Below are positions 3,206 through 44,580 of a stretch of 44,580 nucleotides of DNA, piece by piece; within the stretch, counting starts at the first letter, position 1; every line of letters starts with the position of its first letter. Both the position numbers and the translations under genes were made by a program. The stretch covers positions 1 through 44,580 of the forward strand of contig JALWUI010000159.1 of assembly GCA_027082775.1 (NCBI GenBank). The letters are read 5' to 3'. Below the pieces are notes generated by a model, which was not told where the DNA came from, searched no databases, and was given only the letters and a program-made list of their open reading frames with translations. The DNA comes from Candidatus Kapaibacterium sp. (lineage in GTDB: Bacteria > Bacteroidota > Ignavibacteria > Kapaibacteriales > WFXC01).

Positions 3206-3278
<73 letters not shown>

Positions 3279-8461: not shown

Positions 8462-9208
8462 ATGTCTCCACAGCTTCAGCAACGGCTGGAATCTATCCGC
8501 ACCAATACAACTGCCGGGAGCCGACAGTTGGTACTTTTTGCCCTCGATGCACTGGCAGAATGCCGGTTTTCTTCTGAAGCTCTTTCCCATTTTCTGACCC
8601 AACTCCGGTGGATCCGTCCTGCAATGGCAGCATTTCGCACGATCAGTCGTTTCCTCTCCGATCAACTCCAGCACATCTCCTGTCCAACTGCTGTCGAGAA
8701 AACCAGAGCGCTCATACAACGCAGTTCCCGTGAAACGATCCAGACCGCTTTACAGCAGCTTCCGCATCACGGCACCGTTGCCACCATCAGTTACAGCTCC
8801 CTCATTGAACAAATTCTGGTCGAAGGAATCCACGAAGGAAAACAGTGGAACATCTACTGCTTCCGTTCCGGCACTCCTGCTTATGGCGAATTTTTCCAGC
8901 AACGACTCCATCGGGCTGGCATTCCCGCCACCGTACTTCCAGATGCTGTGCCATCGCACCCCATCGATTTTGTTCTGATCGGTGCTGACACAGTCTCCCC
9001 GTCCTATGGACTTATCAACGGACACCCCAGCTATTCGCTCTGCGCTCTACTCTTCTACCAGATTCCCATTTATTGCTGCGCCGAGTCTTTTAAATATGAC
9101 GCATCGCTTGTACTGGAACCCGGCTTCGACTTTCTTCCTGCTTCCTTCGGTATTCACCAAATTTCCGACTCCGTCTGGATCGATTCTTTAGCAGAACATC
9201 GCTCATAA
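8462..9208 (+). CDS. eIF-2B alpha/beta/delta-like protein (possible sugar-phosphate isomerase)
   Basis: VATISYSSLIEQILVEG...VLPDAV...DFVLIGADTVSPSYGLINGHPSYSLCALLFYQIPIYCCAESFKYD matches the IF-2B family C-terminal pattern. Confidence 0.75.
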   Translation: MSPQLQQRLESIRTNTTAGSRQLVLFALDALAECRFSSEALSHFLTQLRWIRPAMAAFRTISRFLSDQLQHISCPTAVEKTRALIQRSSRETIQTALQQLPHHGTVATISYSSLIEQILVEGIHEGKQWNIYCFRSGTPAYGEFFQQRLHRAGIPATVLPDAVPSHPIDFVLIGADTVSPSYGLINGHPSYSLCALLFYQIPIYCCAESFKYDASLVLEPGFDFLPASFGIHQISDSVWIDSLAEHRS

Positions 9209-9359
9209 AGAGCCGTGTTTCCGGACATCGGGCTCCATTCAGCTCTTTTCTTAACATAACGGACAGCCAACTCGCTCCGACCTCCCCTTAAAAGATTTTT
9301 CCTGCAAATTCTTCCTTAGTTTTCCAGGTCAGCGGTTATGTTAAACAAACCTCTTCCCG

Positions 9360-9582
9360 TTTTCCACAATCATCCACAAATCGAGTGTTTCTGAACTGTG
9401 GAAATCCGTGGAAAACTTACCACTTTGTCCACACTTTTACTGTGGAAAACTTGTTTATCCACAACGCTGTGGATAACTCCGCACTTTTCCACATCATTTT
9501 CCACATACGACCAGTGTTCGCTCTCCCCTTGATTCCGTAGGAACGAGCACTTCTTCCATCCCGGCTTTTCCACTTTTCCACA
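9360..9582. other. oriC: Candidate chromosomal replication origin (DnaA-box cluster)
   Basis: DnaA-box-like 9-mers at 9360+,9370+,9397-,9407-,9425+,9441-,9455+ (TTATCCACA),9468- (TTATCCACA),9485+,9497+,9566+,9574+ in a non-coding interval. Confidence 0.8.
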
Positions 9583-9708
9583 TCTCCTGAAACTACAACC
9601 AGAGAAGAGAAAGCTCAATTCCTGTAACGGAAAATGAAGAGCAACCGCTTCTCTCACGGGTTTTCCCTATATTCGCAACATTGTAGAACAAAGTGGAGCA
9701 AACAGAAA

Positions 9709-10338
9709 ATGAAACGGTTTAGCCTAATTCTGCTTCTCAGCCTTGGAGTGACCATTGCACATGCGCAGTTATTCTATCCGCTTGGTGTCGGAATTGGTCT
9801 AACAGGACAGATGGGAATCAACGCTGGCGATATTCCGCAGGGAGAAAAAACAGAGCTTGCAATTGCGCCTCTACCGAATTTCTTCGCTTCTGCGTGGTAC
9901 ATTGTTTCGCAGAAGGAAGACTTCGGATTTGCGCTGGATGTGGGATACACCACGAACACGTTCATAATGAAGCCGTACCAGAATGTCACGGACCAAAACC
10001 GCTTCCAGTATGTTCTCAGCTACCTGAGCGTTCATCCGTACATCCAGTTCAAAATGTTTAACCTGGGCGTTGGGCTGGGATTCCCGCTAAGCGGCAAAAG
10101 AGAGAACGTTGCCGGAACAATCTCACAAGAACTATCAAACCTTGCAACGGCGATAGAACTCCGGTTCAAACTCTCGGTTCCCGTGTACCGGGATGCAACG
10201 GGTAAGGTGAGTTTCTGGATTACCGGAGCGTACCAGCTTAATGGGATTTATGCATCGGACATTCCCAACAATCCCAAAGTTGCCTCCGCAGGCATTGGGT
10301 TCAGCTATCACTTTCACTTCCGCCTGTGGGAATACTAA
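9709..10338 (+). CDS. Secreted outer-membrane beta-barrel-like protein
   Basis: MKRFSLILLLSLGVTIAHAQ signal peptide; alternating hydrophobic/aromatic strands, ends SYHFHFRLWEY. Confidence 0.6.
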   Translation: MKRFSLILLLSLGVTIAHAQLFYPLGVGIGLTGQMGINAGDIPQGEKTELAIAPLPNFFASAWYIVSQKEDFGFALDVGYTTNTFIMKPYQNVTDQNRFQYVLSYLSVHPYIQFKMFNLGVGLGFPLSGKRENVAGTISQELSNLATAIELRFKLSVPVYRDATGKVSFWITGAYQLNGIYASDIPNNPKVASAGIGFSYHFHFRLWEY

Positions 10339-14535: not shown

Positions 14536-16876
14536 ATGAGAAAACTGCGCCTGTTTTTGTTCTTTCTCTTCCTGTTTGGGGGGGGGGGATATAGTTGCCC
14601 AACTCCAGTTACCCGTTTTCCTTGATACCCGTGGAGATACCATTGATTACAATTTTCCGCCACCGGATACGGCTTACGCGCCGGGAAAGCTCATCGTGCG
14701 ATTTTATCCCCACGCTTTGTACCTTGACTCACTGTGTTACGCTTATCCGGCTCCGATCACGGAGGGAGCGCCGGGTGAAGGGGTTTTGATGTTGCCTCCG
14801 TCGCTGCGCCAGCATTTGTTATCGCAGCAGTTTTCCGTTGCTTCCATCATCCGGGATTCGGCACTTCGAGTGACGCTTGAAAATCTGGGGGTTGATTTCC
14901 TGCAGCGAATGACGGTAGCCAACCCGTGTGCTGATACGATTTCCATCACGCGCTACGGTGATACGGTCCGATGCACTGATTACCTGTGGATGGTGATGAA
15001 GTTTCGGAGTGATACCATCGATATCATTGATGCAGCGGATCAGATTTTAAGCAATCACTGGGATGTGGTGGAGATTGTGGAGCCTAATTACTATCTGGAG
15101 CTTTTGGACCGGACACCTTCTCGAGATCCGAATTTCCCCTTGCAGATCAGCCTGCATCGGGAGATGACGGGAGTAACACGGGCGTGGGACTTTGAGGTTG
15201 GAGATTATGCGATCAAAGTCGGGGTCATAGACGATGGGATATGGTATTATCATTGCGATTTGGGTGGTGGTAAGGGATGGGGATACAAGGTTGCTGGTGG
15301 CTGGAATTGGACGGAAGATACGACAGATTTCAGTATAGGTTCCAGTCATGGAACTCCTGTGGCTGGCATTGTTGGGGCGTTGACCAATAGAGGATGTGTG
15401 GAGCAGGGAGTTGCCGGGATTGCTGGTGGATGGGGACCGGATAACAACTATAGCGATGAGGGAATAGGGTGTGCACTATATGGCTTTCGTGTTGCTCATC
15501 CGCAGTGGTCGGGGTATTTATCTCTTGCTTACGCTATTGCTGCTATTCTGGAAGCCAGCAGTCGTAATCCGAACACCGGGTATGGATATGGAGTGCACGT
15601 CATTAATGCCAGTTGGGGAGGTTCATTCTACAGCTTTGCGTTGAGATCCGCGATATTGTATGCATTTGAAAATGGGGTCAGCTTTGTTGCAGCAAGGGGG
15701 AATAGCTATGATGATCGATTGCATTATCCTGCGTGCTACGACGAGTGGTGGGTGTCCAGTGTGGGGGCATCTGATAGGTCCAGGAATCGGATTGATTATT
15801 CTTCGTATGGCAGGGGGATGGATTTCCTGGCTCCGGGAGGATATTATTCAGGTCCGAACGCTATAGTGTACACTACTCAATACGGCGGAGGGTTTGGATA
15901 TTTTGCAGGAACCTCTGCGGCAGCGCCCCACGTCAGTGGTCTGATTGCACTGTTGTGTTCTGAAGCCCGGGAGCACCAGTGGGATCTGGTGGTGGAGGAT
16001 TACGAAGGAATGATTAAGGCTGCTTGTGAAGATAAGTTGTCACGTTTCTATGACGATCAAACTGGATGGGGACATATCCGGGCAGATACGTTGTTTGATA
16101 TGCTCCAGCGAGGATACAGGGTGAGCCATTTCTCTGTTGATTCAGTGGCAATCGACTCTGTTGGAGAATGGAGTCCGACTTTTTTGCTGCTGGTGCTTAA
16201 TGCTGGAGGGCGACCAAAGCCGTTAGCTTCGGGACCTTACCTGGCACAGCGCCGATGGGTCTATGGTACGATTCATTTGCCTCCACATCGGTGGATAGTG
16301 GATAGTGCAAATCCCCTGTTCGTGTGGGGGCGGAGCGGTGAAGGAGCGCCCAGTGGTTGGTCGCTGGCAAATCCGTGCCTTCAAGCTGGTGCGACGTATG
16401 TTCTTTCAGGACGGGGTGGCAACGGGAAGACTGATGGCATCTACCATAGCCATTCCTTCCAGGTTCGGGTTGCCAACCTGCAGTATAAGCTGGTGTCGCT
16501 ATTGAATGGGAGGCGATCGACGCGACCAAAGAAGCTTGGATTCCATATTTCGGTTTTTGGAAGGGAGAAGGTAACCGATGTAGAAGACCGGGATGGACGG
16601 ACCCGGCATACGGCTGAGGGGCGTCGGTGGGCATTCCGGTGTGTGGTGCAGGATCGGAAGCTCAAGGTGTGGGTGAGCTCCTCAGTCCCGGGAAGTGAGG
16701 AAATGACGGTACGGATTTTTGATGCGCAGGGCAAGATGTTGTATGCTGGATCTGGCGTGTTGCGCCGGGGAGGAGAACCGCAGGAGTTTCTGGTTCCCCG
16801 TCTTTCCCGTGGGGTTTATTTTGTCCAACTGCGGATCGGAGCGGATGTGGTCACGCAGCCGGTATTTGTCTGGTAG
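14536..16876 (+). CDS. Secreted S8 (subtilisin-like) peptidase with T9SS-type C-terminal domain; signal peptide currently out of frame because of G11 tract
   Basis: Catalytic regions VGVIDDG (D), SSHGTPVAGIVG (H), GTSAAAPHVSGL (S); C-term MTVRIFDAQGKMLYAG...SRGVYFVQL. ATG 14536 MRKLRLFLFFLFLFGGG joins DIVAQLQLPVF only if one G is removed. Confidence 0.85.
14578..14588 (+). repeat. Homopolymeric G11 tract in signal-peptide coding region
   Basis: TTT-GGGGGGGGGGG-ATATAG read directly. Confidence 0.95.
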
Positions 16877-40383: not shown

Positions 40384-40910
40384 GCTTGTGGTGAGTTCCA
40401 GGGCGCACTGGCTGCAGGGACGGCTAATTTCCCTCCTGACACAGGGGCGCTGAGGGCATCGGGGTGAAGCGCTGTGCAGAGGGCTCTATGTTGAGAGCGT
40501 TGGCTGCCATTAATCCGTTGCCGTTGCATTCCTTTGTTTTCTGTTCCTTACCGCTCTTGCCATTCATATATCAAACACTGTGCCAAAGGGAAATTACCCT
40601 GCTTGCTATCGCCTTTCAAGGGTTATTGTCGGCAAATCCGATGCTCCTATAACCCACATTTCTCGCAAGAGAACAATCGTTCAAACGGCGTTGTGTTACA
40701 CTATGGTGTCAGGTTCCGTTGGCAGCGTCAGGGAAAATGCACACCTCAGAGTGTGCATTCCCAGCACGATATGGAGGGGCACAACGCCGCTTCGCCCACG
40801 GACGACCCGCCGATGCGATGCAGTGTGAGCGGAGGAGCCGATCTGGAATCTGTTTCGCAAATACGTGATGGTAGGGGGCAGACCGATGTGTCTGCCCTAT
40901 GTCAGATGCA

Positions 40911-40994
40911 GGAAGCGCCGGCTTTAGCCAGCAAAGAAAGTGCACCCTAAGGGGGTGCGTTTCCGGTGAATGCACACTGAAGTGTGCGCTCCCG
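40911..40994. repeat. Intergenic double-hairpin repeat plus partial second unit
   Basis: GGAAGC|GCCGGC-TTTA-GCCAGC|AAAGAAAG|TGCACCC..GGGGGTGC|GTTTCCGG then TGCACACTGAAGTGTGCGCTCCCGG. Confidence 0.8.
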
Positions 40995-41021
40995 GATCCT
41001 CTCCAATCCACATTTTCGGTC

Positions 41022-41052
41022 TTGCCTGTGTCCGGAATTTTTTGTATATTTG
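41022..41052 (+). promoter_or_regulatory. Bacteroidetes-type promoter (TTG-N20-TATATTTG)
   Basis: TTG at 41022-41024 and TATATTTG at 41045-41052, same spacing as 14461-14491. Confidence 0.65.
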
Positions 41053-41096: not shown

Positions 41097-42628
41097 ATGA
41101 TGAAACCGAAAACATTTTCTGCAAATCGTGTGTGTGTGTGTACACACTCCTGTTTCTGATGACCCTCCCGCTGGCAGCGCAGGGATTGTATGTCTGGAAA
41201 CTGCAACTGTATTGGGGGAAGGATTCCACATACGATTTTGATTTGCGGACACCGGCTATCCAGCGATCTGTTGTCGTAGGTATCAATCGCTTTCCGCTCA
41301 AAGGGAGACACGAGGTACACATTGGGGAAGCTGATGGAGGAGGTGGATATGATCAATTTATCCGATTCCGGGACGTAGGCGATCAGCACCTGGAAGGCAG
41401 GAGTGTGGTTCGAACGATTGATGGCATTGGGTATCTTGTAGCAGGGGTACGCTATACGACTGGTTCGCCAGACTCAGTGATGTTTTTATTCCGATGGGAC
41501 ACCAGCCATACGAACGTATGGGCACAACAGGTGCGGTTAGCAGATCCCTATGGTTTGCCGTATGAGACCGTAATGCCTACGAAGGTGATCAATTACCGGG
41601 GGCTGTATTATCTGGTTGGCGGTTATGGACGGATAGGCGGTCGTCAGGATGCGTTTTTGCTGAAGGTCGATGATCAGGGAGCAATTGGATGGGTGATGAT
41701 TTACCGGGATGTTGCAACACCGGATCACGACAAATCGCCGTTGTGGTTATGGGATTTGGAAGCAGCGCAGAGCAGTGGGGAAGTGGTGCTGGTCGGATCG
41801 CGGGTGACACTGTTTCGGAATGCGCTGCCGGATGTGGGATGTTTGAATGAGCGGCAGCAGGCGTGGATGGTGGTAGTTGATGGGAATAATGGGACGTTGC
41901 TGAGCAATGGGATCTATGCGGAGTACAAGGATCAGTGTACAGAGTTAAAGAAGGTGCGCGTCGCAGAGGAGATGGCAACGGGGAAGCAGTATGTATTGAG
42001 CTGTGGGTGGGGGACACATCGGATACCGGGGACCAGTGCGACGATTACACCGTTGACCTACAATGGGGAGTTAGGGAACTTAGCAGGGGGAAATTTGCAG
42101 TTTCAGATGACGCTGGTGGGGATGGGCGGCAATCCGGCGTATGAGCAATTTCGGGATCTGGAATACTGGATGGTACAGGACACGGTGCAGGATATGCTGG
42201 CGTATGTGGGGAGTGTTCGTGACAGCAGTTGGTACACGCCTGTGGGGCAGTGCTGGGACGGGTTCTGGTGGAAAGCAGGGAAAGAGATACACGTGATGCA
42301 GGGATTTTACTATGGTTGGGGGCAACCGCAGCCATATCGGTTGCGGCATATGGAGAAAGTTGAAGCGGATTCAGCATTGTATTTGTTGGGGTATGATGTA
42401 GCGATCTCGCGGGCAGTGTTATGGAAGACAGAGGGGAGGGTCTTTCGACCCAAAGGGGAAGTAGTGCAAGAGTGTCGAACGGAGGTTGCAGGGGCACCGG
42501 ATCGACCGTTTGGGTTGTATCAGGAGTCGATGGAAGCATTGCCGGGGAGCGTGATCGTCGATCCGTTGCAGGTGGAGCTTCTGGATAAGTGGGGATTTGG
42601 AATAGAGTGTTCTGGTACCCTGGATTGA
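41097..42628 (+). CDS. Secreted protein of unknown function; signal peptide currently out of frame because of (GT)7 tract
   Basis: ORF track gives 41132..42628; ATG 41097 MMKPKTFSANRVCV joins YTLLFLMTLPLAAQGLYVW only if one GT unit is removed. Confidence 0.75.
41128..41141 (+). repeat. (GT)7 dinucleotide tract in signal-peptide coding region
   Basis: AATC-GTGTGTGTGTGTGT-ACACAC read directly. Confidence 0.95.
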
Positions 42629-42673: not shown

Positions 42674-44580
42674 ATGAAAAAGGTGGTAGTGATTGCAATG
42701 ATCTGGAGTTTGCAGTGGGCTGGCAGCTGGGGGCAATGCCAGCCGGCAGCGTTCAGTAACAGCTATTTTGGTAAGGAGTTTTGGGTTTTACCTATACCAT
42801 TTACCTGGCAACACGTGCAACCAGTGGATTGGGCAATTGCGCTGATAGCACCGTATGGCGCAGAGGTACGGGTGGATCTTCCAGCACTCCAGTGGCAGCT
42901 TCCTCCGATTCGCCTGGCTCCGGGGGAAGCGAAGATGCTGAATACCGGGGAAGAATTGATCAGAATTGAGCAAATACCCATTGGGGAGATTATATCAAGG
43001 GTTATTCGTATCCGGTCGGATCGTCCGATAGCGGTCATTGTGCATAGTTTTTTCTGGAGCTTTGATGTTCCCCGTCCGACGTATAGTGCTATGCCTTCGC
43101 AATATGTTGCCTATCCTCTGTCGGTGTGGGGGCGACATTACTTGCACGCGGGATATTATGACAGCTATTGGATGAGATCTTATCCGGAAAGTGTAACCGC
43201 GCCAGCGGGATTTATGATCATAGCTAAAGAAGACGGGACAGCCGTGACGATCCGGGTTCGGGGCAAGGGCTGGGGATGGATCCGCTTTCGGGGTAATGAT
43301 GAAAAGCTGGTGTTTCCACGGGATTGGGGAAAAACCTATCAGGTGGTGTTGCGCAAGGGGGAAGTGCTGAATTTTGGGAGTCTGGGACAGAGCTACATTT
43401 ATGACAATGGACAACATACGTTTGGAGGACTGGACTTCAGCGGGACAGAAATTAACGCCAATAAACCCATTGGGGTTATCTCGTACCATGCGAACGTGCC
43501 AGCGCCGTACAACTTATGGCATTCACTGGGGTATGCTATGGGCGATGAGACTATAGCTGAGATGTTACCGCCAGTAGCGGCGTGGGGCAAACAATTTTAT
43601 GCCCGTTCGGTACGGGGGCAACGCCAGTGGGTTCGGCTGGAGAAAGGAGATAATTTCCGGGTAATCGCGCTGGAGGCAAACACAGTCTTTACCGTGCGGT
43701 GGTATGATCCGCAGAGCGGACAATTGAAAGGACAATGGTCGGGACTGCTTCGGCGGGCAGGGGAGTTTATGGATTACGTTGTTTTCGAGAATCTTCCGGA
43801 GTGGATCGAGGGGTACTCGGTCTGGGAAGCAGATAAGCCAGTGATGTTGATCCAGTACGGTGGGAATCAGGCAGATGGGAGCTGGGTATTTCAGTGGGTA
43901 GCATCGCCGGAGCAGTATTTGTGTGAGCACTGGTATTACCAGTGGCAGAGCGGCGGTTTTAGCAATCAGGCGAACATCGTGACGGTATCGGAGCAGGGCG
44001 GAGAAGCGATCAAGGGGATAGAGTATGACGGGGAGCCGTTATGGCAGCGGTATCCGGGGATTGTGGTGCAGCAGATTCCCGGGGAGGCAGTCTGGGGGAT
44101 ACAGGTGAGTGGATTAGAGGCGGGAGGGCATCAGATCAGGGCGCCGGTACCAATGATGGTGCAACCGAATCAGTTGGGTACCGATGTTTCGCAGGCTATG
44201 TTTGCCACCGGCTACACCTTAGCGGCGTGGAACCGATTGGGGAAGCTGGACACGGAAGCGCCACGATTGCAGCGGCAGGATAGCTGCGGTATCGCCACCG
44301 TTACCGCCCGTGATGACTCCCTCGATCTTCCCTACGAAGATACCGGCATTAGCAGAGTGGAACTGCTCAGCGATCGGTCCTATAACTACCGCCTCCGAAT
44401 GGTCTCACCACCGGTGCTGGAAAACCGCGGCGAGGGGTACTGGCGACAGATCCGCTTCCGACTGGAAGTGATCGATCCTGCCCGTGATGGCAAAGCGGTC
44501 TATGGGGTGGTGGACTGGCGGGGCAATGTGCGGCTGGATAGTGTGGTGTACGATGCACCGGAACTGGCACTGAGTGACAC
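42674..44580 (+). CDS. Large secreted IgGFc-binding-domain-like protein, partial (runs off window; absent from ORF track)
   Basis: RBS AAGGAGG then MKKVVVIAMIWSLQWAGSWGQCQPAAFSNSYFGKEFWVLPIPF...VIRIRSDRPIAVIVHS...AGFMIIAKEDGTAVTIRVRG...NKPIGVISYHANVPAPYN; no stop to window end. Confidence 0.7.
   Translation, partial: MKKVVVIAMIWSLQWAGSWGQCQPAAFSNSYFGKEFWVLPIPFTWQHVQPVDWAIALIAPYGAEVRVDLPALQWQLPPIRLAPGEAKMLNTGEELIRIEQIPIGEIISRVIRIRSDRPIAVIVHSFFWSFDVPRPTYSAMPSQYVAYPLSVWGRHYLHAGYYDSYWMRSYPESVTAPAGFMIIAKEDGTAVTIRVRGKGWGWIRFRGNDEKLVFPRDWGKTYQVVLRKGEVLNFGSLGQSYIYDNGQHTFGGLDFSGTEINANKPIGVISYHANVPAPYNLWHSLGYAMGDETIAEMLPPVAAWGKQFYARSVRGQRQWVRLEKGDNFRVIALEANTVFTVRWYDPQSGQLKGQWSGLLRRAGEFMDYVVFENLPEWIEGYSVWEADKPVMLIQYGGNQADGSWVFQWVASPEQYLCEHWYYQWQSGGFSNQANIVTVSEQGGEAIKGIEYDGEPLWQRYPGIVVQQIPGEAVWGIQVSGLEAGGHQIRAPVPMMVQPNQLGTDVSQAMFATGYTLAAWNRLGKLDTEAPRLQRQDSCGIATVTARDDSLDLPYEDTGISRVELLSDRSYNYRLRMVSPPVLENRGEGYWRQIRFRLEVIDPARDGKAVYGVVDWRGNVRLDSVVYDAPELALSD

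Follow-up and report, generated by a model that had tools for sequence, protein, structure and literature searches.

The opa genes of Neisseria form a multi-locus family in which each gene carries a 5′ coding repeat, CTCTT. Few of the genes are in frame, alleles are shuffled between loci, and genes have been lost at some loci (PMC12889595). The oipA gene of Helicobacter pylori has a CT dinucleotide repeat in its signal-peptide region, and is turned OFF by frameshift (PMC10564699). Within Bacteroides, the phase variation of surface structures includes examples of DNA inversion (reviewed in PMC11868660), and the same review asks why multi-locus phase-variable genomes seem to be confined to pathogens. 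We have studied a locus of Candidatus Kapaibacterium sp. which very likely forms part of a multi-locus, slippage-driven, phase-variable and recombining system of surface proteins, in which a GT tract acts as a contingency switch within the coding sequence of a signal peptide.

The window comprises the entire contig C159, 44,580 nucleotides in length, of a 2.74-Mb MAG (the own genome, denoted G000). On its plus strand the start codons ATGATG and the n-region of a signal peptide, MMKPKTFSANR (41097 to 41127), are followed by the putative slippage tract GTGTGTGTGTGTGT of exactly seven GT units (41128-41141). This is the sole GT/AC run of at least five units in the window. The long ORF, gene 1 (41132 to 42628, plus strand), comprises the h/c region of the signal peptide, YTLLFLMTLPLAAQ, and a protein of ~480 amino acids whose secretion is inferred. 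Its frame runs without a stop from within the tract to 42628, giving 498 codons from the GTG at 41132, or 489 codons from the first in-frame ATG at 41159. As assembled the gene is OFF, being out of frame with the upstream start; translation from the ATG at 41097 or 41100 reads MMKPKTFSANRVCVCTHSCF and meets a stop after 19-20 codons. For a tract of n units the ATG and the long ORF share a frame only if n mod 3 = 0, i.e., (GT)6 or (GT)9. An earlier note on this DNA had described the tract, the two ATG codons, the early stop, the (GT)6/(GT)9 frame rule and an ORF of ~495 amino acids, and all of these held when recomputed from the sequence. One criterion for a contingency locus is a 5′ coding repeat that sets the frame of a conserved ORF by its unit number, and it is met here.

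A second criterion is that the tract should be longer than chance predicts. The expectation was calculated for both strands of the 2.74-Mb genome using a first-order Markov model built from 181 kb of that genome, giving 0.23 runs of at least six units and 0.014 runs of at least seven units genome-wide. Three (GT)≥6 tracts are observed, against the 0.23 expected, with 12 units in contig C50, 13 units in C90 and seven units in C159, and all three lie at the 5′ end of paralogues of one gene. The (GT)7 tract is longer than predicted by chance, and this criterion is also met.

Gene 1 itself gave no match in Pfam and no relevant match in NCBIfam, and a profile search of the PDB was likewise without a relevant match. 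A coat-protein entry of the PDB (0.024) was rejected as noise, and identity as an SBBP beta-propeller was not accepted, the score of 15.1 bits falling short of the cut-off of 400. An AlphaFold2 model calculated from the single sequence was unusable (mean pLDDT 34), and was discarded. Among 58 other genomes of the same order the gene has one weak match (E = 4e-4); (GT)≥8 tracts occur in eight of these genomes, and in none of them was such a tract seen to coincide with the signal peptide of a long ORF. A scan of IMG/VR with the gene 1 family profile found no relative, and with no phage DNA match either, a phage-borne cassette is not supported.

The tract was compared across the own genome and two congeners, G001 and G002, all of them fragmented MAG assemblies. 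It could be read in 21 copies, three in the own genome and nine in each congener (18 in the congeners), with between 5 and 16 GT units; at two further sites in G002 the contigs stop short of the tract, and these lie outside the 21. Among the 19 copies that could be scored, four are ON, with the ORF in frame (G001_C32, G001_C45, G001_C27 and G002_C135), and the remaining 15 are OFF, with the ORF out of frame. Where OFF copies could be read to a stop, translation ends after 16-48 codons. The earlier note had proposed phase variation by slippage at one locus. The mechanism is supported, but the locus is one of many, and the note had missed that the gene belongs to a dispersed family of many copies, and that one site can carry different cassettes.

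Most of the copies share a 5′ module consisting of the element TTTTTTGTATATTTG, a leader, the ATG, the KTFSANR codons, (GT)n, and an h/c region with MTLP and AQ. The promoter-like element, of the Bacteroidota type TAnnTTTG, lies at 41038 to 41052 on the plus strand of the window and is common to the tract-bearing copies; its promoter function is inferred from sequence alone. A GT repeat read in any frame gives only Val and Cys codons, and therefore the tract can vary in length without creating a new stop, and always suits a hydrophobic core. That the Val and Cys residues made by the tract extend the hydrophobic core of the signal peptide is an inference from the genetic code, with no experiment behind it. 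The N-terminus of an ON copy, for example MTKAKTFSANRVCVCVYTLLFAMTLPLLAQ, has a charged n-region, a Val/Cys core derived from the tract and a cleavage-like end. Such N-termini support the earlier note's reading of an in-frame signal peptide joined to the long ORF, although export is inferred.

Could translation start within the tract itself? The tract would then not be a switch: a GTG codon inside it (GTGTGTGTGTAC, MCVYTLLFLMTLPLAAQ...) would initiate translation in every phase, and the unit number would alter only an untranslated leader. It is true that, wherever a copy has enough sequence to judge, the long frame extends without a stop back into the tract and offers in-frame GTG codons. However, the product would be without the positively charged n-region, and the other copies conserve KTFSANR, or something close to it, ahead of the tract; in those that are ON it joins on to a textbook signal peptide. 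We regard initiation within the tract as very unlikely, and favor the tract as a switch.

A further criterion for a contingency locus is that the unit number differs between close relatives while the gene is otherwise intact. The window cassette and a 99%-identical cassette in G002 (G002_C131) differ by 33 substitutions and one indel in ~3,553 columns, and that sole indel is one GT unit (2 bp) within the tract. For the pairs G000_C90 and G002_C27, and G000_C50 and G002_C47, the sole indel in 700 compared coding bases is again in the tract, with differences of 2 or 6 bp, corresponding to one and three units. The criterion is met. The G002 contig carrying the window cassette has a coverage of ~2x, a figure known for that contig alone, so its unit count is soft. 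Length polymorphism is shown only from copy to copy between MAG assemblies, and heterogeneity of length within a population is not shown.

It might be argued that the true tract is in frame, and that the frame difference is an artefact of assembly or sequencing in short-read metagenomes. All the genomes are indeed MAGs, one G002 contig has the low coverage noted above, and copies are found at contig ends. Against this, the same design with different unit numbers is present in 21 copies from three separate assemblies, both ON and OFF; the tracts, at 10-32 bases, fit inside the read length; and the compared pairs show no further indel in the adjoining coding sequence. Dinucleotide tracts are also not a common class of sequencing error. 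An explanation by error is most improbable.

Are the OFF copies simply pseudogenes of a decaying family, with the tract a mutational relic? As many as 15/19 scorable copies are OFF, and the family includes deletion forms without a tract, as well as one gene 2 with a frameshift (see below). However, for a pair of OFF copies compared over 495 codons dN/dS is 0.11, and it is 0.08-0.25 overall. Moreover, frames of ~490 codons are open, with no other frameshift in the full-length copies that were read, and ON copies are present in two of the three genomes. Synonymous changes dominate in OFF copies, which are therefore being kept; the OFF copies are under purifying selection. Decay is very unlikely as an explanation. 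Phase variation by slippage is supported by the single GT unit as sole indel, the range of 5-16 units, the coexistence of ON and OFF copies and the selection acting on OFF copies, while switching itself is inferred.

In the window gene 1 is followed by gene 2 (42674 to 44580, plus strand), which has its own signal peptide, an IgGFc_binding domain (PF17517) and the start of a conserved C-terminal half, before running off the contig. The match to PF17517 is above the gathering score, with E = 4e-30 in the window ORF read from 42647 and values down to 1.6e-32. When longer homologues are included, gene 2 contains IgGFc_binding, ASH/choice-of-anchor-D repeats and a C-terminus resembling T9SS sorting domains. 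Tested against two homologues, the T9SS sorting domain model TIGR04183 scored 15.3 in one, compared with a cut-off of 23, and gave no match in the other; the T9SS component SprA is present in all three genomes. Gene 2 consists of two halves. The IgGFc-binding half is variable, and the C-terminal half is conserved, with 94-98% identity among many of the copies; gene 1 and the N-terminal half of gene 2, in contrast, can be sorted into distinct types. Most copies have the common 5′ module, a variable gene 1 and, where readable, the large gene 2, with secretion predicted.

Two departures from this layout were observed. The gene 2 adjoining the C90 copy has a frameshift when compared with its G001 homologue (L071 ~3230-3250), which seems to stem from an insertion of 2 bases that does not lie in any long repeat. 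Short tractless forms of gene 1 are found at some sites under a GTAATTTG variant of the promoter (L100 7228-7515, L072, L073, L085, L086 and L087); they resemble LDVW or GLHVF types that have lost an internal part but kept the C-terminus.

Sites were matched between genomes by their left flanks. The metH site carries the LDVW type in G000 and G002, and GLYVW in G001. The OsmC site has a short form in G000, GLHVF in G001 and GLYVW in G002, and at two further sites LDVW in G001 is set against GLHVF in G002. The window site has a GLYVW cassette in G000 and a tractless short form in G002, where the 99%-identical GLYVW cassette sits not at this site but at the OsmC site; the window cassette occupies the window site in one genome only. 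Eight flanks lack a cassette in a genome, the flank continuing into other genes. Upstream of the expression site in the window are dispersed palindromic repeat elements, such as GCCGGCTTTAGCCGGC and GCACACTGAAGTGTGC (40734 to 40995); segments 40734-40854 and 40911-40995 have matches at tens of positions in G001 and G002, and several cassette junctions fall within or near such repeats.

Most copies end at contig breaks, so that the assignment of cassettes to sites may include misjoins. The exact identity spanning the tract is 33-43 bp between the copies in G000, and at most 64 bp when the G002_C131 copy is set against its paralogues, but reaches 130 bp for G001_C5/G001_C27 and 119 bp for G002_C59/C115. 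With such short exact repeats across the tract, misassembly is an unlikely source of the cassette differences for G000; for the G001_C5/G001_C27 and G002_C59/C115 pairs it remains possible, and is not excluded. With this reservation about short-read assembly, the genomes differ in which cassette a given site carries, and in whether it carries one at all. Homologous recombination is inferred as the simplest route of exchange, and transposition is not ruled out.

Repeat tracts are also present in other predicted secreted genes. An S8 subtilase with a T9SS-type tail (window 14536-16876) has a run of 11 G at 14578-14588 in its signal-peptide region, the sole G/C run longer than 8 in the own genome, and is out of frame. 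Its orthologues, with G11 (G001:C15) and G9 (G002:C116), are out of frame too. Only two other (GT/AC)≥6 tracts occur in the congeners, and both lie at the 5′ end of a second gene whose product is predicted to be secreted. This gene reads MMKRFPFYALLAELFSK and then a His-Thr run, with an AC repeat in the signal-peptide region of 11 and 6 units (L104 (G002:C64) ~8750-9877, and L105 (G001:C35)).

In the mechanism that we propose, a GT unit would be gained or lost at replication, so that the ORF and the ATG come to share a frame or cease to do so. When they share one, the K/R-rich n-region, the Val/Cys core from the tract and MTLPLAAQ would together form a signal peptide, and the product of gene 1 would be exported; when they do not, translation would stop early. 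Each genome holds several cassettes, mostly OFF as assembled. A cassette would comprise gene 1 with the variable N-terminal half of the T9SS-type gene 2, and cassettes would be exchanged, gained and lost between sites, most likely by homologous recombination through the conserved 5′ module or upstream repeats on one side and the conserved C-terminal half of gene 2 on the other. The outcome would be that cells of one population show different surface proteins, for which evasion of phage or predators, or bet-hedging in adhesion, may be the selective agent. Slippage in real time, export, surface location, protein function, the route of recombination and the selective agent are all inferred, and all the data come from MAG assemblies. 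We lean, by no great margin, toward a bolder reading, in which whole two-gene cassettes, each with its own GT switch, move among many repeat-flanked expression sites. An uncultured lineage that is not among the species known for multi-locus phase variation would thereby have a repertoire resembling antigen variation.

The Kapaibacterium genus, in which each fragmented assembly yields 3 to 9 copies with a tract, along with the poly-G run in a secreted protease and the secreted gene with an AC repeat, provides a test case outside pathogen lineages, no link to a host having come to light. If the system is real, the architecture that immune evasion selects may also be selected by phage, predators or fluctuating surfaces, and the cassettes may also account for the fragmentation of the genomes at these sites. 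No report linking phase variation with Kapabacteria was found in the literature searched, which is weak evidence of novelty.

How does the locus compare with the known systems? In common with Bacteroides it would show phase variation of surface structures on the Bacteroidota side, but by slippage within a reading frame rather than by DNA inversion. It shares with H. pylori oipA a dinucleotide tract within the signal-peptide coding region and an OFF state due to frameshift. However, the repeat is different, the searches made gave no match of oipA to gene 1, and exchange of cassettes among many sites is not described for oipA in PMC10564699. The likeness to Neisseria opa extends to a multi-locus family, a frame-setting repeat near the start of the coding sequence, few genes in frame, shuffling, and loss at some loci. 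In contrast to the CTCTT pentamer of opa, the Kapaibacterium tract is a GT dinucleotide. No homology of gene 1 to the Opa outer-membrane proteins was found in Pfam, NCBIfam or the PDB; gene 1 matches none of the known outer-membrane families and is followed by a large IgGFc_binding/T9SS-type gene, and whole cassettes are present or absent at sites in an uncultured lineage. By analogy, the Kapaibacterium cassettes may work as opa genes do, without being members of the Opa family.
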